Positions 11,082 to 21,041 of a stretch of DNA of 46,952 nucleotides are shown one piece after another. Source of the DNA: Armatimonadaceae bacterium. Lineage in GTDB: Bacteria; Armatimonadota; Armatimonadia; Armatimonadales; Armatimonadaceae. The notes beneath the pieces were generated by a model that was not told where the DNA came from, did no database searches, and saw only the letters and a program-made list of their open reading frames with translations. Each line of letters opens with the position of its first letter. The stretch's first letter is position 1. The DNA is taken from the NCBI GenBank assembly GCA_030446525.1, contig JAUJNC010000035.1, positions 1 through 46,952 of the forward strand, read 5' to 3'. The position numbers and the translations under genes were made by a program.

Positions 11082-11353
11082 ATGACTATCACGCTGGATC
11101 TACCTGACGACCTCGCGGCGCGGCTTAGCGCCCGCCCCGATGTCGACCAGTTTGCCGCCGTTGTTCTTGCCGATTCGCTCGATGCTGAGGAAGGCGAGGG
11201 GTAGAGTACGACCTCGAAGCCGCCGTGGAAGGAATTCGGCGCGGGCTGGCCGAGGCTGACGCCGGAAAGGGCAGGGCACTGGAGGAGTTTATCGCCGAGC
11301 GGACGGAGGCGCGCCGGCAGCGAACCGGCGGCGATGCGACACAGGCCACATGA
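11082..11353 (+). pseudogene. Antitoxin of a RelE/ParE-type pair, one frameshift
   Basis: The ATG at 11082 with AAGGAG upstream gives MTITLDLPDDLAARLSARPD and reaches a TAG at 11202-11204 after 40 codons. Moving one frame near 11200 continues plausibly (VEYDLEAAVEGIRRGLAEAD, then an Arg/Glu-rich end) to a TGA at 11351-11353 that overlaps the toxin ATG by 4 bp. The N-terminal beta strand and Leu-rich helix fit a ribbon-helix-helix or short DUF-type antitoxin. Its identity as antitoxin rests mainly on position and the ATGA overlap. The 40-residue form may be what is made if the break is real. Confidence 0.6.
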
Positions 11354-11733
11354 CCCCATACCGAGTGCGCATCCTCCCCGCGGCGTGGAGAGCGATATCG
11401 CTGAGGCCCACGCCCATCTCGTGGGAACGGCGAGCTTCGCCGTCGCCGATGAAGTGGGAAACCGGATTGTTTACGGCGCTGCGCGAGCTTGCGACGACGC
11501 CGAGGCGACAGGTGGCCGAGTGCGAGAGCCGCCTCTTGGGCCAGCAGGTGCGCCGCATGGTGTACCGGCGAACACCGACCAGCGCTGCGGCGTACCACGT
11601 CTACTTCCGGCTGATCGAAAGCGAAGGCAAAGACGGCGTGGTCGAGGTGCTCCACGTCCGTCACGCGTCACGGCGGCCTCTGACCCGCGCGGAAGTCAGG
11701 GAGCGGCGTCGCGCCATCGAGAACGAGACGTAG
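11350..11733 (+). pseudogene. RelE/ParE-family toxin, compensated frameshift
   Basis: About 127 residues. The C-terminal half (QQVRRMVYRRTPTSAAAYHV, then YFRLIESEGKDGVVEVLHVRHASRRP) has the RelE/ParE beta-sheet and the terminal VxHxRHxxR signature. The N-terminal helix pair is out of frame between about 11383 and 11450, where another frame supplies ESDIAEAHAHLVGTASFAVA. Two opposite indels therefore restore the frame. ParE-like proteins poison gyrase and RelE-like ones cut mRNA on the ribosome; I cannot separate the two here. The gene is translationally coupled to the upstream antitoxin. Confidence 0.75.
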
Positions 11734-11984: not shown

Positions 11985-12217
11985 ATGATAAATGCGCACC
12001 GCGTGGAAACGACACTGACCCAGGACCGAACGCTGACGTTGGAAGGCCTGCCGTTCAGGCGGGCGATACTGTCGAGGTGATCGTTTTGGAACGTGCCGCA
12101 AGCGATGGTGACACGACCAGCGAAGCCGAGCAGGTAGCCGACTGGCTCACGGCCTCCCGCCGTTCGCTACGCGAAATATGGGACAACGACGAGGACTCCG
12201 TGTATGACCACCTATAA
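11985..12217 (+). pseudogene. MazE-like antitoxin, one frameshift
   Basis: The ATG at 11985 starts MINAHRVETTLTQDRTLTLE with GLPF next, an AbrB/MazE-like or short beta-rich antitoxin beginning. A one-base break near 12057 leads to AGDTVEVIVLERAASDG and the helical tail EAEQVADWLTASRRSLREIW, ending at TAA 12215-12217. The start of the MazF gene at 12204 lies inside the 3' end (14-bp overlap), the normal arrangement for such operons. The acidic C-terminal tail (DNDEDSVYDHL) suits toxin binding. Confidence 0.65.
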
Positions 12218-12560
12218 CCGGGGCGACGTGATCCTCGTGGACATCGCCTTCTGCGGGTCCGCCGGGAGTAAGCGGCGCCCTGCGGTGGTTATCAGCACGA
12301 GCGCTTTCAACAACGCGGGCATCAAGCCGAGCGTCGCTGCCATCGCCAGCAACGTGTCACCGCCTTTTCGCCCGGCGACATGCTACTGAATGATTAGAAT
12401 GCGGCGGGTTTGCTCAAGCCGTCCGCGGTGCGCGGCGTGCTGGCGACGGTGGACAAAGCCGATGTCGCGTACGCTGGGCACGCTATCGGCCAACGACTTG
12501 GCTGAGGTCGAGAAGGGTATTGCGGGTATCGTCGGGTTCGTTGTTCCTGCATCGCCGTGA
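12204..12560 (+). pseudogene. MazF/PemK-family endoribonuclease toxin, nonsense plus frameshifts
   Basis: MTTYNRGDVILVDIAFCGSA followed by GSKRRPAVVIS is the MazF N-terminus: the RGDV beta strand, the S1-S2 loop and the KRRPAVV core with its catalytic Arg. Past a break near 12370 the frame continues MLLND, then a TAG where the family usually has a Trp (TGG to TAG), then NAAGLLKPSAVRGVLATVDK. After another one-base loss near 12463 it reaches the end at TGA 12558-12560. Two frame breaks plus a genuine-looking nonsense codon make real inactivation more likely here than in the other damaged genes. Confidence 0.8.
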
Positions 12561-12620: not shown

Positions 12621-13697
12621 ATGAGGAAACAAGACGATACGCTGGAAGAGAAAAAGCGGCAGCTTACCGAGATCACGACCGCCTTCTGTGACGCACGCCT
12701 GAACGCCGACTACAAGCGGCTGTGCAAGAAGCTGATCAACCAGATGGCGCGGATGCGCCCGGCGCCGTTTCTGCGGGGGCGGCTCGAGATCTGGGCAGCC
12801 GGTATCATCCACGCGCTGGGCAGCGTCAATTTCCTGTTCGACAAAAGCTTCGAGCCGTACGTGAGTGCGAGCGAGATCGCCCAGCACTTCGGCGTCGCAC
12901 CAGGCAGCGCGTCGCAAAAGGCCGCGGCGATCCGCGAGATGTTCGACCTGAACCACTTCAACGCCGAGTTCACCACCAAGGACATGCAGCGCAAGCTCGC
13001 CCCCACGCTGGACATGCTGGCGCAGATGGAGACGCTTTTCGCCTCGCAGATGGGCGGTCTCGCGGGCGCGGATGAGCCTGGCGAGGGGGAGGGCGAGCTG
13101 ATCGACGAGGGCGAGTTCATCGACGACGACCATCCCGTGATGAGCGCCTACTACGACCTGGTCGAGCGTTTCCAGGCGCAGGGGCCGACCCCGGCGATCC
13201 AGAAAAGCCTGGAAAGGATGATCGAGCGTGACCCGGATTTTTACGATCCGTACCTGATGCTGCGCGACATCCTGATCCGGCAGGGCAAGGCGGCCGAAGG
13301 GAACGCGCTGCTCGAAACGGCCTACCGGCGGGCGCTCGGGCGCATCACCGACAAGGACGGCAACTGGCCGGCCTCGCTCGAATGGGGCTGGCTGGAAAAC
13401 CGGCACATCATCCGGACGTTCCTCAATCAGGCCATCGCCTCCTGGAACGCGGGCGACACCGGCGCGGCCCTGGAGCTTTTCCGCAAGCTGCTGCGCTCCA
13501 ACCCCAATGACAACGCGGGCGCGCGCGAGTACATCCTGGCCATCCGCCTGGGCATGACCTTCGACGAGTTCGAGAACAAGTTCCTGGGGCAGTTCGGCTA
13601 TGATGCTTCGAAGATGTCCGACTGGTTCGACAAGAACTCGACCCGCTTCCCCGACGAGTTCGACTGGTGGAAACAGGCCGTGGACTACGAAGCCTAG
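12621..13697 (+). CDS. DUF6398-like protein with TPR-like C-terminus
   Basis: Intact 358-residue soluble protein. The N-terminal ~120 residues (KRRQLTEITTAFCDARLNAD, then LINQMARMRPAPFLRGRLE, IWAAGIIHALGSVNFLFD, and a SASEIAQHFGVAPGSASQKA helix-turn-helix-like segment) match the DUF6398 pattern. An acidic linker follows (about residues 150-170: EPGEGEGELIDEGEFIDDD). The C-terminal half is helical with TPR-like units (YDPYLMLRDILIRQGKAAEG; SWNAGDTGAALELFRKLLRS). The ATG at 12621 has CAGGAGA upstream. It lies between two toxin-antitoxin loci and has no evident operon partner. Its function is unknown; the helix-turn-helix-like part could bind DNA. Confidence 0.7.
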   Translation: MRKQDDTLEEKKRQLTEITTAFCDARLNADYKRLCKKLINQMARMRPAPFLRGRLEIWAAGIIHALGSVNFLFDKSFEPYVSASEIAQHFGVAPGSASQKAAAIREMFDLNHFNAEFTTKDMQRKLAPTLDMLAQMETLFASQMGGLAGADEPGEGEGELIDEGEFIDDDHPVMSAYYDLVERFQAQGPTPAIQKSLERMIERDPDFYDPYLMLRDILIRQGKAAEGNALLETAYRRALGRITDKDGNWPASLEWGWLENRHIIRTFLNQAIASWNAGDTGAALELFRKLLRSNPNDNAGAREYILAIRLGMTFDEFENKFLGQFGYDASKMSDWFDKNSTRFPDEFDWWKQAVDYEA

Positions 13698-13821: not shown

Positions 13822-14100
13822 GTGACAACAACGTATACCCACGCCCGGGACAACCTGGCCGGGCTCTGCGACAAGGCGACCGCCGACCGCGAGGTGATCG
13901 TGATCCAGCGGCGGGGAGCGGAGGACGTGGTCCTGATTGCTGCCGATGAGCTGTCCAGCCTGCTGGAAACGGCGCACCTGTTGCGCTCTCCCGCGAACGC
14001 CGACCGTCTGCTGACGGCGCTCGCGCGGGCGCGGGAACAGTCCGGGGAGCCGCAGTCGCTAGAGGAGCTCCGCCGCGAGGTCGGACTTGCGGACCGGTGA
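13822..14100 (+). CDS. yefM: YefM/Phd-family antitoxin
   Basis: Intact 92-residue protein. The N-terminal Phd/YefM DNA-binding fold reads TTTYTHARDNLAGLCDKATA, then DREVIVIQRRGAEDVVLIAA and DELSSLLETAHLLRSPANAD. The unstructured C-terminal tail, which would neutralise the toxin, contains REQSGEPQSLEELRREVG. It starts with GTG at 13822. It represses its own promoter alone and more tightly with the toxin, as is known for the family; a TGTACA operator lies directly upstream. The toxin gene follows after 25 bp. Confidence 0.92.
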   Translation: MTTTYTHARDNLAGLCDKATADREVIVIQRRGAEDVVLIAADELSSLLETAHLLRSPANADRLLTALARAREQSGEPQSLEELRREVGLADR

Positions 14101-14125
14101 GGACGCTGCGCCGTCCGGCGAGCGC

Positions 14126-14380
14126 GTGGCGGTTTTTCCGCCGGAGTTTGGCGAGGACCTCCGCTACTGGGTGGAGACGAATCGCAAAACGGCGCTGCGC
14201 GTCCTGACGCTGGTGGAAGCGGTTCTGCGAGACCCCTTCGAAGGTATCGGCAAGCCGGAACCGCTGAAATACCTCGGCGCGGGCGTCTGGTCCCGACGGG
14301 TCACCGAGGAGCACCGGCTTGTTTACCTCGTCCGGGCGGATCGGATCGACTTCCTGCAGGCGCGGTACCACTACGAATAG
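14126..14380 (+). CDS. yoeB: YoeB-family ribosome-dependent mRNA interferase
   Basis: From the GTG at 14126 the protein is 84 residues, the standard YoeB length, and opens with VFPPEFGEDLRYWVE as the family does. The catalytic residues align with E. coli E46/R65/H83 as E45 (GKPEPL), R64 (EEHRLVY) and H82 (QARYHYE), so the toxin should be active. YoeB cuts mRNA in the ribosomal A site. A TTG at 14087 would give 97 residues and overlap the antitoxin by 14 bp. The later start is preferred on length, though coupling would favour the earlier one. Confidence 0.9.
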   Translation: MAVFPPEFGEDLRYWVETNRKTALRVLTLVEAVLRDPFEGIGKPEPLKYLGAGVWSRRVTEEHRLVYLVRADRIDFLQARYHYE

Positions 14381-14440
14381 TTCCGCGCCCCGAGCAGCCG
14401 AGACCACGACCCACAGAGCGCTCCGCCGAAAGGGGCGGCT

Positions 14441-14463
14441 GCTTCGATGAACGGGAATCTTCA
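14441..14463 (+). repeat. Left copy of 23-bp direct repeat flanking the ATPase-TPR cassette
   Basis: This 23-bp sequence (GCTTCGATGAACGGG then AATCTTCA) recurs without mismatch at 17799-17821. Weak similarity continues a few bases on both sides. The right copy is the leader of the GH42 gene, so the left copy may be a leader duplicate. Confidence 0.7.
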
Positions 14464-14598
14464 GCGTTGAACGGGGAGGGCTGCGCGTTGTGCGCTCTGG
14501 CCCGGCGCGCTGGGTTCGCCAGCCTGGCGTACCGGTGAGTGCGGCTCCGACGATCCGCCCTGCCGCACTGGTGATAGAATGTGGATGGAGGAACGTGA

Positions 14599-15966
14599 AT
14601 GGAAGGGATGGAGTTCCCCGTCAGCCTGCTGGACCAGATTCCCCGCGCCTGCGATCCCGGCGAGCCGCTGGAGCCGGGCGACACCCGTTACGCTGACCTG
14701 AAGGCGCTCCGCCAGGGGGTCGGTTTGAAGCGCCTCAAGCAAGAACTGAACAGCAGCCCTGCGTCGGGACGTTTCCATCACCGCTGCGTCTGCGGTCATC
14801 GCGGCACGGGAAAGTCCACCGAGCTGCTGGCGTTCAAAGAGTGGGCCGACGCGCAGGGCTATCTGACCGTCCGGACCGAGGTGGATGAGCGTTTTGGCCT
14901 GATCTCGCTGGAAGTCGCCGATCTCTTCCTGCTGACCGCAACCGTCGCAGAACAGGCAATGCGGGAGTTCGGCGCGCCACTTCCCGACGACAAGATCCTT
15001 CGGGTGATTCAGTGGTTCGCCGAGATTACCAAGGAGGATAGGGACGAGGCGAAATCGGAGATCAGCGTCGAGGTCGGCGCGCAGTTGAAGTCTGAGATTC
15101 CGCTGCTGGGCAAACTCTTTGCCAAATTGACCGCCGGAGGCAAGGCGGCCTCTTCGCACGCGACGACCGTTCGGCAGAGGATTCGCAACTTCCCCGACAC
15201 GCTCGCGGACTTCACGAACGATCTGCTGGATTGGGCGAGCGCGAAACTGGTTGAGCAGGATAAGCCGCGCGGACTGCTCCTCCTCTTCGACAACCTCGAC
15301 CGCTACGACCCGGAGAACATCGACCGGCTCCTCTACCGCAGCAGCGACCTCGTCCACCGCCTCGCCTGCCACGCCGTCTTCACCATCCCGATCTCGCTCG
15401 AATATGACCCGCCCTCCGGCGTGATTCAGGACTGCTACGGCTTCTCGGTCGTTCTGCCGATGCTTTCGCTGCGCCGCCGAACCGATGCGTGGGGTGCGAT
15501 GGTCGCCGACACGGCCTTCGATGCGGGTGGCGTCCGCATCGTGCGGGAGGCGTTAGGCAAGCGCGTCGCCGTGGAGACGCTCTTCGCCAATCCGACTGAC
15601 GCGGATCGTCTCATCAAGATGAGCGGCGGCTGTATTCGCGACCTGATGCACCTCGTCACGCTCGCGCACGCACATAGCGAGGAGGGGGCGGCCCAGCTTA
15701 CCCAACCGGCGGTGCAGAGCGCGATTCGCGAGATGCGCGCGACCTACATCCGCCGCCTGGACGCCGACGATTACGACGCGCTGGCGAAGATCGCGCGGCG
15801 CGACCCCGGTGTAACCGAGGAGAAGAAGCGCCGCCTGCTCTACCACCGCTTCGCACTGGAGTATCTGGACGAGAACGCAGTGCCATGGGTGGACATTCAT
15901 CCGCTGGTGCTCGAGACCGAGGAGTTCCGCCATGCCTACCACCGCCAAAGCCCTCTCGCCGGATAA
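14599..15966 (+). CDS. P-loop ATPase (STAND/ORC-like), first gene of a two-gene cassette
   Basis: Intact 455-residue protein. The Walker A motif is GHRGTGKST (residues 66-74, K72). Walker B is LLLLFDNLD (226-234, D231 and D234). A sensor-2-like SGGCIRDLMHLV (342-353) carries the expected Arg. The C-terminal ~60 residues look like a winged helix (RRLLYHRFALEYLDENAVPW, then VDIHPLV). An inserted helical region (about 145-185) separates the P-loop from Walker B. There is no membrane segment. This is the layout of ORC/STAND-type switch ATPases. Start ATG 14599 has GGAGG 7 nt upstream; ATG 14608 is an alternative. The next gene begins inside it (35-bp overlap), so the products are probably made together and interact. 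Confidence 0.85.
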   Translation: MEGMEFPVSLLDQIPRACDPGEPLEPGDTRYADLKALRQGVGLKRLKQELNSSPASGRFHHRCVCGHRGTGKSTELLAFKEWADAQGYLTVRTEVDERFGLISLEVADLFLLTATVAEQAMREFGAPLPDDKILRVIQWFAEITKEDRDEAKSEISVEVGAQLKSEIPLLGKLFAKLTAGGKAASSHATTVRQRIRNFPDTLADFTNDLLDWASAKLVEQDKPRGLLLLFDNLDRYDPENIDRLLYRSSDLVHRLACHAVFTIPISLEYDPPSGVIQDCYGFSVVLPMLSLRRRTDAWGAMVADTAFDAGGVRIVREALGKRVAVETLFANPTDADRLIKMSGGCIRDLMHLVTLAHAHSEEGAAQLTQPAVQSAIREMRATYIRRLDADDYDALAKIARRDPGVTEEKKRRLLYHRFALEYLDENAVPWVDIHPLVLETEEFRHAYHRQSPLAG

Positions 15967-17616
15967 AGATCTCGCCGCCACGCTCGGAGAGGAGGGCGCG
16001 GCGGAGTACCGGCGGCTTCTGCGCGTGGTGCGGTCGGCACAGGGACGGTTCGCGCTTTTTCCCATCGAGAGCGACCTTCCTCCCCGGCAGCGCGACGCTT
16101 TCCTGGCGCAGCTCGCCGCCGATCTCGCGGCGGATGGCTGCTGCGTGCGCCGCATCCTCCTGACGCGGGAGGAGTGGGACGTTTTCGCGCATCCCGACTG
16201 GCCGGAGCGTGCCGCGCCGACCGATGTTATCGCCGTGGTCGGCCTAGAGGAGACGCCGGGCATCGTCGCGGAACCGGGAAAGCCGCCCGCCCGCCCGCCC
16301 GCTATTGCGCTCCTGAACCAGTTGCGGGAAACGCTGCGAAAACGCCTCGGTGTTCCGCTTCTGCTCTGGTGCTCTCCGCTTGTCTACACGACGCTCCTTG
16401 AATTCGCCCCGGACTTCTTCGATCACTTCACCGCGCAGTTTCGGTTTCCGTCAAAGTACGCCAAGTCATGGCCGAAGAACAGGGGCGGGAACGATGGTGC
16501 GGTCAGGACTTCTGTGGATGCGGGAACGGCAAACCATGTTCGGTCTTCGAATCCCTTCGCCGACCGAACTCGCCTTCTACGAGGAGACCGTCGCGAAACG
16601 GACGGACCCGACGCCCGACCGCGCGCGTGCGCTCGTCCTTCTCGCGAAGGCTATGGCGACAAACAAGGGGTGATCGTAATGCAAACCTGCGCCGTGCGAT
16701 TACGTGCCTTGAGGAGGCGTTGACGATCTTCAAGGAGGAAGAGTTTCCCCAGGACTGGGCCATGGCGCAGAACAGCTTGGGTCTTGCCTATGCCGTTCTG
16801 CCACTGGTGACCGGGACCAGAACCTGCGCCAGGCGATTGGCTGCTTTGAGGCGGCGCTGCGGGTCTACACCGAGGAGCGGTTCCCGCAGGACTGGGCAGG
16901 GACGCAGAACAACCTGGGCAACGCGTATCTCTATCTTCCTACCGGTGACCGGGACGCCAACTTGCGCCAGGCCATCGCCTGCTGCGAAGCGGCGCTGCGG
17001 GTCCGCGCCGAGGAGCGGTTCCCGCAGGACTGGGCCATGACCCAGAACAACCTGGGCGTCACCTACAGGAACTTGCCTACCGGTGACCGGGACGCCAACT
17101 TGCGCCGGGCCATCGCCTGCTACGAAGCGGCGCTGCGGGTCTACGCCGAGGAGCGGTTCCCGCAGGACTGGGCAGGGACGCAGAACAACCTGGGCAACGC
17201 GTATCTCTATCTTCCTACCGGTGACCGGGACGCCAACTTGCGCCAGGCGATTGCCTGCTTTGAGGCGGCGCTGCGGGTCCGCACCGAGGAGCGGTTCCCC
17301 TACCAGTGGGCGATGACCCAGAACAACCTGGGCATCGCCTACAGGAACTTGCCTTCCGGTGACCGGGACCAAAACCTGCGCCAGGCGATTGGCTGCTTTG
17401 AGGCGGCACTGCGGGTCTACACCGAGGAGCGGTTCCCGCAGGACTGGAGCAGGGACGCAGGCGAATCTTGGTTGGACGCTTCAGCAGCAAGGAGCGATCG
17501 AAGCGGCGCGCGAGGCGTTCTCGGCGGCGGCACGCGGCTTCCGTACTGTTGGCGACGAGGAGCGAGCGCGACGGGTCGAAGCCTATCAGGACAATCTGAA
17601 GGATGAGTCGGCTTAG
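15932..17616 (+). pseudogene. TPR-repeat protein with STAND-like N-terminal module, frameshifted partner of the ATPase
   Basis: The ATG at 15932 has GAGGAG upstream within the preceding gene. The first ~175 residues form an alpha/beta domain without Walker A that ends in VPLLLWCSPLVYTTLLEFAP and DFFDHFTAQF. That ending resembles degenerate STAND modules found ahead of TPR arrays. After frame changes near 16465 and 16668, six 46-residue TPR-type units follow, for example GDRDANLRQAIACFEAALRV then RTEERFPYQWAMTQNN. A missing C near 16801 and an extra A near 17447 are further breaks. The last part, GWTLQQQGAIEAAREAFSAA, ends at TAG 17614-17616. About 560 residues when repaired. It probably senses or binds a partner through the TPR array while the ATPase acts as switch; no catalytic effector is visible. 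Confidence 0.7.
16669..17457 (+). repeat. Six tandem 138-bp units encoding TPR repeats
   Basis: Units begin with GGTGAY at 16669, 16806, 16944, 17082, 17220 and 17358. The spacing is exactly 138 bp, except 137 bp for the first, which fits a single lost base near 16801. Units starting at 16806 and 17082 share long nearly identical stretches, as do those at 16944 and 17220, suggesting duplication of a two-unit block. Confidence 0.9.
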
Positions 17617-17641
17617 GTGAGGAAGCGAAAGGTATGGGTAA

Positions 17642-17765
17642 CTAGTGGGTCATTCGCCACGCAAATCGCCTTTCACTGAGTCACCGTTTCAATCGCTTCG
17701 CTTGAGCAATTTAGGATACGTGAGTCAGACCTGAATGGCTATACACGTGGCTAATGACCCACTAG
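17642..17765. mobile_element. 124-bp MITE-like element with terminal inverted repeats
   Basis: The left end CTAGTGGGTCATT (17642-17654) is matched by AATGACCCACTAG (17753-17765). Past one mismatch (C against A) the arms continue with GCCACG, giving about 20 bp each. The interior is visibly more AT-rich than its surroundings and has no coding sequence. The ends start and finish with CTAG, which may be a target duplication. It sits between the TPR gene and the right 23-bp repeat. Confidence 0.6.
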
Positions 17766-17798
17766 GACCCACATATCCCTCTGTCGAAATCGGTGGCG

Positions 17799-17821
17799 GC
17801 TTCGATGAACGGGAATCTTCA
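17799..17821 (+). repeat. Right copy of 23-bp direct repeat flanking the ATPase-TPR cassette
   Basis: Identical to 14441-14463. It ends 4 bp before the Shine-Dalgarno region of the GH42 gene, so it belongs to that gene's leader. Confidence 0.7.
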
Positions 17822-17839: not shown

Positions 17840-19936
17840 ATGAACCACAGGAGCCTGCCGGATTTTCCTTACGGGGCGGTGTACTTCCGCAAGTCGAACC
17901 CGCCGCGCGAGGACTGGGCGCGCGACTACCGGACCGCTGCCGAGGACAGCATGACTGTCTTCCGGCACTGGTTCCTGTGGAGCGCCATCGAGTCGCCCCC
18001 GGCGTCTATGACTGGGAGGATTATGACCGACAGCTCGACCTGGCCGTCGAACACGGCATCAAGACGATCATCGCCGAGATGATCACGGCCGCCAGTGGGC
18101 GTGGCGCCGGTACGCCCACGCGCGGCTCGAGGCTCGGGATGGTTCTCATCCCCGCAGCACCATCAGCGGCGATTTGTGTGACCGGCGGCTTTCCCGGCCT
18201 GTGTCTGGACCACCCCGAGGTCCGGGATGCGGCCCAAAGCTCTGACGGCACTCGTCACCCGCTACAAGAACCACCCCGGCATGGGCGGCTACGACGTCTG
18301 GAACGAGTGCAACACCCGGCCGCCTACTGTTACTGCCCGGCGACGGCGGAAGTTCCGGGGTTGGCTGCGGGCCAGGTACGGTGGCGATGCGCGCGCTGGG
18401 GCGGGTCTGGCAGCGCCACAGCCTCCAGGTGTGGGACGATGTGCAGCCGCCGCGCGGCACGGGCCCTACCCCGACACGCTCGACTGGCTGCAGTTCCGCA
18501 TCGACAACGCGTACGCGGCGCTGCGCTGGCGCGTCGACCTGATCCGCGGCCTCGACCCGGAGCACCCCGTCACGGCGCACGGCATCGCGGCGAGCCTGAC
18601 GGGTATGGCCTCCGGCGGCGCCGACGACTGGCGCGCCGCCGCCGAGGTGGACAGTTATGGCTACACCTGGGGGGCGGCGCGGCGCGGCAACGAGCCGTGG
18701 AAGCAGTGGCACGCGGTCGATCTGGTGCGCGCCGCCTGCCGGGGTAAGCGCTTCTGGCACGCGGAGGCGTATGCGGGCCCGCTGTGGATGCAGCCCAACG
18801 TGATCGGCCGGCCGCGCGATGACGGGCGGATCGCCGACCCGGAGCACATCCGGCTGTGGGACATGACCTCGTTCGCCGCGGGCGCCACCGGGCTGATGTA
18901 TCTGCGCTGGCGCCCCTTGCTGAACGGGCCCCTGTTCGGCGCCTTCGGCGCCTACGGCATGGACGGAAGCCGGACGCCGCGCTCGGCGATGGCCAGTGAC
19001 ATCGCGCGCTGGGTGGCCGCGCCGGAGCAGCAGCCGCTCTGGGAGGCGCGCCCCGTGCGGGGCGAGATCGGCATCGTGTATGCGCCCGAAACCGAACTCT
19101 TTTGCTACGCGCAGCAGGGCAACACCGAATACTACGCCCAGTCTCTGCGCGGCGCCTACCAGGGCTTCTTCGAAAGCAACATCCAGGCGGACTGGGTGCA
19201 CATCGACGACATCGCCCGCTACGACCTGCTCTACCTGGCCTTCCCCTACATGCTGAGCCAGGCCAGCGCCGCCGCCCTCGCCTCCTGGGTGGAGGGCGGC
19301 GGCACGTTGATCGCGGAAGGCTGCCCCGCCTATTTCGGCGACCGCGGTCGTGTTGGCACGCGGCAGCCCAATTACGGCATGGACGCCGTGTTCGGCGTTC
19401 GCGAAAGCTACGTCGAGTTCACCCCCGACCTATCCGACGGCTTCGACATGGGCATTGACGGTCTAAACGTGCCCGGCGGCCTCTTCCTGCAAGCCTACGA
19501 CCTGGCGGGCGGGACCGCGCGCGGCTGGTACACCGACGGGCGCATCGCGGTTGTTGACCATAGCTATGGCAACGGCAAGACTCGTCTGATCGGCACCTTT
19601 CCCGGCTATGGCTACTGGAAGCGGCCGGGGACAGACGCGCGGCAGTTCTTCGCCGGCCTGCTTCCCTGGGCGGGCAAGCAGCCGCACCTGCGCATCAAGG
19701 GGGAAGATGGTGCCACCAGCGCCGTTGCCCGGCTGCACGCGGGGGAGACGGGCGCGTTCCTGTGGGTCGTCAACCACGACCACGCACCGCAGACCGTCGA
19801 GGTCGAGGTAGGTGAAGGGTGGGGACCGTTCGACGGTGCGGACCTGCGCTGGGGGGCGCACCCGCCGCAGGTGGGAGGCCGTCGGGTTCGTGTCGCCGTC
19901 GAAGGCCGTGATGCCGCCGTGATGCGGCTCCACTGA
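17840..19936 (+). pseudogene. GH42-type beta-galactosidase-like glycoside hydrolase, frameshifted near 5' end
   Basis: The ATG at 17840 (GGAAGGGA upstream) begins MNHRSLPDFPYGAVYFRKSN, then DSMTVFRHWFLWSAIE, the GH42 (beta/alpha)8 barrel opening. At least five indels lie between about 17993 and 18470. Across them, frames give GVYDWEDYDRQLDLAVEHGI, GGFPGLCLDHPEVRDAA, and MGGYDVWNECN with the acid/base Glu of the WNE motif. From about 18480 the frame is clean: FWHAEAYAGPLWMQPN holds the likely nucleophile Glu, then a Rossmann-like trimerisation domain (LLYLAFPYMLSQASAAALAS, then WVEGGGTLIAEGCPAYFG) and a C-terminal beta domain. No signal peptide, so it is probably cytoplasmic and acts on imported oligosaccharides with terminal beta-galactosyl or related residues. 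Confidence 0.85.
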
Positions 19937-20087
19937 TGCTGATGGAGTCTCTTCCGGTGTGAGAGCCAGAACGTGACACAAAAAAGGCGCCAGATAGCAG
20001 CAGAACCGTCGGATGTTAGATGTGTAGGCTGCTGAGGGCAGCGGATATCGGAAGCTCTCAAGCTGACGTGGAGCGATATGGGAATTG

Positions 20088-20504
20088 ATGCAAGCGCCAA
20101 TAACCGCGGAACTGCTAAATCATCTCATGGTGCAACAGGCGCTGGAGCAGGCCTGGGCGGACTCGCTGCCCACCGACCCTGCCCACCGGCACGAGGAAGG
20201 TGGGTGGATCTATATGGATGCCACGACAGGAGCCATCTCGGTGCGACGGGCGCCAGCAGGCACTCAGGCCGCGCTCGACTTAAGCGCACCGCCGATCATC
20301 ACCGGCTCCGTTGTCGTGGCCACTTTTCACACCCACCCCAGCCCGAGCAGCGAGGGCTGGTATCCAGGCCCCAGCACAACAGATACTGAGTCCGCCTGGA
20401 TCCTGGGCGTTCCGTGTTTGATTCGCGCCGACGATGGCGTCTATACCACAGGGCCGGATTCTCGACGTGGGGGTTTGACCGGCGGGCCGGGCTATCCCCC
20501 ATGA
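20088..20504 (+). CDS. JAMM/MPN-like metalloprotein (DUF4329-like)
   Basis: Intact 138-residue protein. Two glutamates, E36/E37 in HRHEEGGWIYMD, then FHTHP (H81, H83) and GPSTTD (S96, D99) reproduce the E...HxH...SxxD arrangement of JAMM zinc isopeptidases. The HxH to Ser distance is about five residues longer than canonical. The C-terminal LIRADDGVYTTGPDSRRGGL segment is typical of small bacterial JAB/DUF4329 proteins, some attached to polymorphic toxins. The ATG at 20088 follows a weak purine stretch. A small gene follows 38 bp later in the same orientation, likely co-transcribed. It could be a peptidase, a deubiquitinase-like enzyme or a toxin; sequence alone does not decide. Confidence 0.65.
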   Translation: MQAPITAELLNHLMVQQALEQAWADSLPTDPAHRHEEGGWIYMDATTGAISVRRAPAGTQAALDLSAPPIITGSVVVATFHTHPSPSSEGWYPGPSTTDTESAWILGVPCLIRADDGVYTTGPDSRRGGLTGGPGYPP

Positions 20505-20542: not shown

Positions 20543-20794
20543 ATGGCTGAAGCTGCTGCAATCCATGACCAGCATACCCGGTTACTAGCTGCCGATCAAG
20601 CCTTGACGATCGCGCAGGCGGATGCGGTCAAGGCTTACCGCGACCTTTCTGGCTATCGCATTCGGCTGGCGCTCGAGGAGGACGGCTGGCATGTGGATTA
20701 TGAACTGAAAGATCCCAAGCTCAAAGGTGGCGGGCCGCACTACGTCATCGACTCATTCACCGGAGCCATCGTCTCTAAAAGGTATGAACAGTAA
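20543..20794 (+). CDS. Small PepSY/NTF2-immunity-like protein
   Basis: Intact 83-residue protein with AAGGAG upstream of ATG 20543. The first half is helical (DQALTIAQADAVKAYRDLSG). The second half is a beta meander (YRIRLALEEDGWHVDYELKD, then PHYVIDSFTGAIVSKRYEQ). The closing YVID-TGAIVSKRYEQ strand-turn-strand is shared by PepSY-like domains and by the small NTF2-fold immunity proteins of polymorphic toxins. No signal peptide. Its close pairing with the JAMM-like gene suggests that it inhibits or protects against that product. This is a positional inference. Confidence 0.55.
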   Translation: MAEAAAIHDQHTRLLAADQALTIAQADAVKAYRDLSGYRIRLALEEDGWHVDYELKDPKLKGGGPHYVIDSFTGAIVSKRYEQ

Positions 20795-20891
20795 GCGGCG
20801 ACAGGGCCGCTTAGCACCCGTTGCATCCGACGCCGCGTCAGGGAATTGTTGGTAACAGTCAAGGGAGCGTAGCGCCGGCGCGACTGAGCAG

Positions 20892-21010
20892 GGTAGGGGC
20901 CGTTTGGCGCCGCGCGCCTGCACTGGGTAGCGCATCCGCCCCAGGTCGGTGATCATCAGATCTGCGTCACCGTCAAAGGCCGCGATGCCGCCGTGATGCG
21001 GCTCCGCTGA
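20892..21010 (+). pseudogene. 3' remnant of a second GH42-type gene
   Basis: Read in the matching frame it gives GPFGAARLHWVAHPPQVG, then DHQICVTVKGRDAAVMRLR and a stop. This aligns with the end of the intact-ended GH42 gene (GPFDGADLRWGAHPPQVG ... VEGRDAAVMRLH). DNA similarity covers about 120 bp and reaches past the stop codon. The two ends are paralogous rather than identical. Everything upstream of this scrap is missing, and the JAMM-like pair occupies the interval. Confidence 0.75.
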
Positions 21011-21041
21011 TGCTCGGAGTGCGTTCCAAGGGGGCCATGGC

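Follow-up and report, generated by a model that had tools for sequence, protein, structure and literature searches.

The window analysed here is a stretch of 46,952 nucleotides (nt) from the genome assembly of an Armatimonadaceae bacterium (contig JAUJNC010000035.1), and its subject is a pair of overlapping genes on the forward strand. Gene 1 encodes an AAA+ ATPase and gene 2 encodes a partner protein, in which an N-terminal module, predicted to be an AAA+ core lacking a Walker A motif, is followed by TPR-type repeats. Co-occurrence of the two is close to universal among close relatives of the ATPase, and the domains behind the module are exchanged from locus to locus. The pair is probably (with a probability of about 0.62) a nucleoside triphosphate (NTP)-driven two-component conflict switch, serving immunity, cell suicide or self-recognition; we infer the role in defence from the domain company. 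In its logic the pair would resemble BrxC-BrxB of the bacteriophage exclusion (BREX) system, yet it is not BREX.

Co-Occurrence of the ATPase and the Module

Genome contigs from a one-genome-per-species collection were scanned with a profile of the ATPase alone. The scan recovered at least 515 relatives among at least 580 candidate stretches, and the best 80 loci were kept. A profile of the N-terminal module of gene 2 was seeded from the window and then iterated. Gene calls at the loci were greedy open reading frame (ORF) picks supplemented by six-frame checks, and all counts of loci and genomes ignore kinship. In the 80 loci, picked by ATPase only, the six-frame check placed the module downstream of the ATPase in 78, with the module match starting no more than 150 nt from the end of the ATPase match in 75 of these; in the two loci without the module, the contigs end 89 and 283 bp past the ATPase. 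Intact, unbroken pairs were present in dozens of loci other than the window.

Whole genomes were also sampled by phylum, centred on loci L035, L023 and L004. Among 98 cyanobacterial genomes, the module was found in 26, the ATPase in 27 and both in 25. In this sample, 83 of 110 modules lay downstream of an ATPase, with four more within 10 kb in another arrangement, and 82 of 93 ATPases had a module downstream (5 of 98 ATPase rows having been dropped as second pieces of one gene). The ATPase and the module occurred in the identical four of 81 Chloroflexota genomes, 36–165 bp apart, two of the four being already known carriers of the pair. Six of 81 Armatimonadota genomes carried the ATPase (13 matches); one locus was viewed in each, including the seed genome and genome G199 with its eight ATPase matches, and the module was adjacent in all six. 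In ten genomes drawn from pair-bearing loci, an ATPase lay upstream of 45 of 55 modules, and 45 of 56 ATPases had a module, after 8 of 64 ATPase rows were dropped as second pieces of one gene.

The distances between ATPases and those between modules correlated across 64 loci (r = 0.96), and none of 999 permutations gave an equal or higher value; part of this correlation stems from common descent of the hosts. The original prediction, made from the letters of the window, held that switch and sensor are here split over two proteins. The gene-neighbourhood surveys, in which homologues of the two genes co-occur, agree with a conserved two-gene cassette of this kind.

The pair was also found in a metagenome-assembled genome of the archaeon Methanothrix (L039), and in L014, L028 and L034 (Thiomargarita, Thioploca). 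These lineages are known for filamentous or multicellular growth, and the host pattern may resemble that reported for other NTP-dependent conflict systems.

The ATPase

Gene 1 (14599–15966, forward strand) is an intact ORF encoding 455 amino acids (aa), with a Cdc6/Orc1/STAND-like core and a winged-helix-like C-terminus according to its motifs and predicted fold. In an alignment of 44 family members, the P-loop residues H67, G69, G71, K72 and T74 are invariant, as are D231 and D234 of Walker B and the S342-G343-G344 motif, and R347 is conserved in at least 90%. An intact P-loop ATPase with its motifs at these positions had been predicted, and both the ORF and the family alignment agree with it. 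The structure model has a predicted local distance difference test score of 91.2 and ends in a helix-helix-strand-strand arrangement that is winged-helix-like. Its fold matches were Pyrobaculum Cdc6, Aeropyrum Orc1 and a Pyrococcus Walker-type ATPase, with TnsC, CED-4 and plant resistosomes next closest. On this model, the gene 1 product is a Cdc6/Orc/STAND-like AAA+ protein, in which Walker A, Walker B, a sensor-2-like motif and a winged helix follow in Cdc6/Orc order.

The best Pfam matches of the window ATPase were AAA_16, AAA_22 and ORC-CDC6-like, each below its own cut-off (31.1 bits against 32.6 for AAA_16, PF13191; 14.6 bits against 27 for ORC-CDC6-like, PF24389). With the best Pfam matches below their cut-offs, there was no support for membership of a known housekeeping family. 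At E ≤ 1e-3, 250 of the 7996 candidates scored in a protein search were relatives, from sources including Chthonomonadales, Armatimonadetes, Acidobacteriota, Entotheonella, Chloroflexi, Isosphaeraceae and Sorangium. The closest other protein is 78% identical to the window ATPase, and the 43 aligned others range from 29 to 78%.

The Module and the Domains behind It

The constant module forms the N-terminal 178 aa of gene 2 (15932–16465, forward strand). As had been proposed from the letters of the window, it is P-loop-less and STAND-like: there is no Walker A motif, and the predicted fold indicates an AAA+/STAND-like core, with an N129-x-x-R132 motif. Walker A was absent from all 140 modules (0/140) and R132 was invariant in 60. 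No Pfam or NCBIfam family was found for the module, and a search of solved structures was likewise at chance level. Module-bearing homologues of one TPR/WD40-type repeat protein numbered 322.

TPR arrays prevail behind the module, with TPR_12 in 63 of 70 partners. The TPR-only form is the commonest, accounting for 82 of 144 partners in a non-random set in which the architecture classes were assigned by pattern and the loci were partly picked as unusual. Elsewhere, Pfam matches identified NACHT (L001, L095), nSTAND1 with WD40 (L084), NACHT with a calcineurin-like phosphoesterase (L089), SIR2 with nSTAND5 and TPR (L091), and a protein kinase with FGE (L092); L090 carries an Mre11/SbcD-like phosphoesterase stretch (E = 2.4e-5). 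Every one of these unusual-partner loci (L001, L084, L089–L092, L095) has a family ATPase beside the partner. NACHT in L002 and L015 and TIR in L143 are labels assigned by eye.

Two arrangements bear on how the proteins may pair. In L130, two ATPases stand in tandem, of which the second carries a TIR fusion (E = 1.2e-31), and a partner with two tandem modules follows; two ATPases beside two modules fit one-to-one pairing. The same gene order is present on plasmid4 of Calothrix sp. NIES-4101 (AP018277), of which the TIR-bearing homologue was also recovered in the protein search (P0244). A single ATPase in L121, and likewise in L122, is flanked by a module-TPR gene on one side and a module-only gene on the other.

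It had been suggested that the N-terminal module might itself be the effector. This was rejected, as the module is the constant part and the domains that follow it vary. Because the module stays constant while the downstream parts change, and TIR sits on the ATPase in one branch, the module looks like an adaptor to the ATPase.

The repeat arrays themselves turn over. Of 70 partner genes, 41 contain tandem arrays at the DNA level with a period of at least 60 nt (72 partners were listed, two of them ATPase fragments); the 64 ATPase genes contain none. All array periods in partner genes are divisible by three. In L057, L069 and L078, the ATPases are 98–99% and the modules 96–98% identical, yet the partners are 596, 479 and 725 aa long. 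Such differences are expected of repeat sensors that change fast, though repeats of low selective value could also give them.

Stand-alone single-module genes of approximately 154–172 aa were observed in L111–L120 (for example, L112:3257-3760 and L115:3731-4225).

Gene 2 in the Window

Gene 2 starts at 15932 and the ATPase ends at 15966, giving the predicted overlap of 35 bp (15932–15966, forward strand, from the ORF coordinates), which suggests translational coupling. All further segments lie on the same strand. The module is followed by linker helices in a different frame, with an approximate start (16466–16673), placed by frame comparison and by alignment to L004. The first TPR-type repeat lies in a third frame (16669–16805, from the ORF list and repeat analysis), and five further repeats with a period of 138 nt (46 aa) occupy 16806–17454 according to repeat analysis and Pfam. 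The six predicted TPR-type copies are therefore present between 16669 and 17454 at a spacing of 137–138 nt, with a Pfam TPR_12 match of E = 4.8e-11. The C-terminal end (17452–17616, approximate start) is in a frame that has changed again in the ORF list.

Gene 2 thus shifts frame approximately four times, and there is no single continuous reading frame in the window. The corresponding ORFs begin at 15932 (module), 16350 (linker), 16468 (first TPR), 16962 (main TPR block) and 17359 (end). In the description of this gene as an ORF, the start, the module and the TPRs stand and the continuous frame does not, a point of which the prediction's word 'repaired' implied awareness. L004, from an Armatimonadetes genome, holds an unbroken gene 2 relative that reaches the contig end; its module is 48% identical to that of the window, and it aligns to window gene 2 in three frames with approximately 50–68% identity over the main segments. 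A codon-frame scan of the window was too noisy for placing the frameshifts. Four consecutive CCCG units in the module gene (16281–16302) are a likely site of slippage or base-calling error.

These frame changes raise the possibility that gene 2 is a pseudogene, and that the pair is a decayed relic or sequence artefact with nothing functional in this organism. Such an explanation is compatible with the other readings and concerns the window only; we consider it possible but doubtful. The ATPase is intact, and the unbroken pairs at other loci also argue against a relic. Two neighbouring genes look frame-broken by eye, which suits base-calling or assembly indels (insertions or deletions). The GH42 beta-galactosidase gene (17841–19936) looks broken in its first third, with the GH42 Pfam match in ORF 18227–19936 beginning at profile position 202 of 376 and N-terminal pieces in other frames, and the MazF-like ORF (12204–12389), which ends after 61 aa, looks truncated or frame-broken. 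Because these neighbours also look broken, indels from sequencing or assembly are as likely as gene decay to have caused the frame changes in gene 2.

Flanking Repeats and Neighbouring Genes

A repeat search located the left copy of a 23-bp direct repeat at 14440–14462 and the right copy at 17798–17820, immediately before the GH42 gene (both on the forward strand). The repeat had been described as framing the pair, and it does so: it occurs exactly twice, with one mismatch, against a mean of 0.00 in 100 shuffles. The copies are embedded in a 72-nt stretch with an identity of just 79%. As the enclosing 72 nt are so divergent, a fresh insertion with target-site duplication was ruled out.

Three toxin-antitoxin loci had been noted nearby. 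A YefM/YoeB locus (13822–14380) is clear (YoeB, E = 8.5e-30), but the MazF-like ORF (E = 1.5e-4) and a ParE-like ORF (11350–11733; E = 0.0036) are weak, and both fall below their cut-offs. Between the toxin-antitoxin loci lies a gene for a DUF6398 and TPR protein (12621–13697; E = 2.7e-38). Two copies of the GH42 gene's 3' end (19816–19940 and 20890–21014; 125 nt, 78%) flank two short ORFs (20085–20504 and 20543–20794), which would suit an insertion or duplication of cargo at this place.

Proposed Mechanism

In the BREX system, BrxB is an inactivated AAA+ subunit seated on the AAA+ domain of BrxC, with R182 reaching into the ATP pocket; there it blocks a further BrxC subunit, raises ATPase activity and forms a bridge to the nuclease PglZ, according to the accessible part of the source (PMC13326643). 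Since BrxC-BrxB and the present pair share these two parts, we propose a capped ATPase that is released or reset by a ligand at the array. Gene 1 would supply an active AAA+ ATPase of the Orc/Cdc6-STAND kind, and gene 2 an adaptor-sensor, of which the dead AAA+ module may occupy the place of a neighbouring subunit at the nucleotide pocket of the ATPase, as BrxB does on BrxC. By the same analogy, this cap may set the ATPase activity and the oligomer state. The C-terminus of gene 2 would act as a plug-in, being a TPR array that binds the trigger in the plain form and carrying extra NTPases, WD40 or enzymes elsewhere. Binding of a trigger to the array would shift the cap, the ATPase would assemble or change state, and the effector would fire. 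In some loci the effector may be part of the partner (SIR2, phosphoesterase, kinase), and in one branch part of the ATPase (TIR).

Genomic Context and a Regulatory Alternative

There was no constant third gene within approximately 6 kb in the 80 loci, the largest neighbour cluster being present in 11. The ATPase was found in 8 of 72,556 plasmid records; one copy, on a conjugative Acaryochloris plasmid, has a recombinase on either side, and HicAB and a NACHT gene are close by. The window ATPase had no match in phage records, which is neutral for a conflict role. PADLOC analysis of the window proteins and partners returned only TPR-named or weak matches.

Several results weigh against a conflict switch. 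Pairing was incomplete, with 10 of 55 modules and 11 of 56 ATPases unpaired in the ten genomes drawn from pair-bearing loci; in the cyanobacterial sample, an ATPase was lacking within 10 kb of 23 of the 110 modules, and a downstream module was lacking for 11 of the 93 ATPases. The stand-alone modules, viewed one per genome in ten cyanobacterial genomes, had no ATPase within 10 kb and lay among ordinary chromosomal genes; they are possibly free competitors or regulators of the paired system. The TPR-only partners contained no enzyme domain. One neighbour gene (radical-SAM by eye) was kept in 11 of the 80 loci, all cyanobacterial, which indicates a stable place in the chromosome, in contrast to a mobile defence island. 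The comparison of module and ATPase profiles was not significant, their kinship being visible in the fold only, and neither was that of the module with eight BrxB sequences (hhalign probability 2.4%). The best PADLOC match of the ATPases was mad8, which was weak and obtained in 11 of 44 members (E = 3.1e-6).

Three of these features, namely the conserved cyanobacterial neighbour, the prevalence of TPR-only partners and the modules standing between ordinary genes, would suit a switch in cellular signalling or regulation, such as a developmental or MalT-like transcriptional one, in which the TPRs would respond to an endogenous ligand and the ATPase would act on DNA through its winged helix. We regard this as unlikely, given the patchy presence of the pair (4 of 81 Chloroflexota and 6 of 81 Armatimonadota genomes), the company of TIR, SIR2 and NACHT, and the fast turnover of the arrays. 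Copy number points the same way, with a maximum of 14 ATPase matches per genome, though seven of eight others had a single match. A conflict switch remains the preferred explanation.

If this explanation is right, many proteins whose present names mention nothing but TPR or WD40 repeats would turn out to be the sensors of a single system, and their partner would be known; a 'P-loop NTPase fold protein' is often their neighbour. Pairing a live with a dead AAA+ subunit, as in BREX, might then be a general building block, and the idea of a dead AAA+ core as a socket for many sensors and effectors would become testable. ATPase relatives are numerous, at least 515 in one scan, yet there was no good PADLOC match and no family for the adaptor domain in Pfam or NCBIfam.

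Comparison with Known Systems

NACHT-TPR proteins, nSTAND1-WD40 proteins and MalT are single-chain STAND NTPase switches with a TPR or WD40 sensor. The present pair likewise joins an NTPase switch to a TPR or WD40 sensor, but its switch and sensor are two proteins, and whole single-chain STANDs occur as cargo behind the module. No title or abstract in the searched open-licence literature described the ATPase and module pair, and PADLOC, Pfam and NCBIfam do not name it. Remote similarity to the anti-phage ATPase DS-41 (NCBIfam NF053860; described in the available portion of PMC13092281) was seen in 9 of 44 ATPase family members (best E = 6e-5), but the window ATPase scored 12.7 bits against a cut-off of 370 bits and falls outside that family.

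The MoxR-vWA-iSTAND ternary systems, as far as the excerpted text of PMC7159879 describes them, also have a constant inactive STAND, swapped effectors or sensors and multicellular hosts. The present pair differs in that no constant third gene lies beside it and its live ATPase is Cdc6/STAND-like in fold. With no neighbour family in more than 11 of the 80 loci, membership of the ternary systems was ruled out.

Kaur et al. (2021, PMC8195603) have described a two-gene system, nSTAND2, and it is improbable that the present pair is the same system. That paper gives the same grammar, in which one operon encodes two STAND NTPases, one of them active and the other eroded, with variable domains fused to the eroded one. 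It also names S29/Dap3 as close to nSTAND2, and this is the family of mS29, the best solved-structure sequence match of the ATPase profile (E = 4e-4). The eroded STAND is there most often fused to GT4 or HEPN, which were found in 0 of 16 partners with Pfam tables among the matches listed (the best 25 families in four of the tables), and one plasmid glycosyltransferase probe, probably not GT4, matched no partner. The GT4 and HEPN comparison rests on these 16, as the domain list for the other 69 partners comprised the best 25 of 126 families. Both systems are two-gene operons with STAND/AAA+-type cores (in the present pair by predicted fold), one with eroded NTP-binding motifs. Their described domains differ, the present partners carrying TPR, WD40, NACHT, SIR2, phosphoesterase and kinase-FGE, and the ATPase of one branch TIR.

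The closest likeness of the conflict switch proposed here is to BREX. In the sections available of a second source (PMC12839542), BrxC is classed with ORC/Cdc6 and BrxB is an inactive STAND without the helical bundle, so both systems combine an active ORC/Cdc6-type AAA+ protein with a winged helix and a separate inactive AAA+/STAND protein without a helical bundle. Unlike BREX, the pair has no constant PglZ, methyltransferase or other third gene in the 80 loci, and its sensor or effector is fused to the inactive module itself. Membership of BREX was ruled out, as there were no constant BREX genes in these loci and no match to the BrxB family (PF08747) among 60 modules at E 0.1. The chances are about even that such pairs make up a large class of switches for immunity or allorecognition in bacteria, as yet uncatalogued, in which an Orc/Cdc6-type ATPase is held by a separate dead AAA+ adaptor, homogenising TPR or WD40 arrays serve as sensors, and effectors (TIR, SIR2, phosphoesterase, kinase or whole STANDs) sit behind the adaptor or on the ATPase. 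Such a class would be related in logic, in a pared-down form, both to BrxC-BrxB and to the origin recognition complex with its live and dead subunits.

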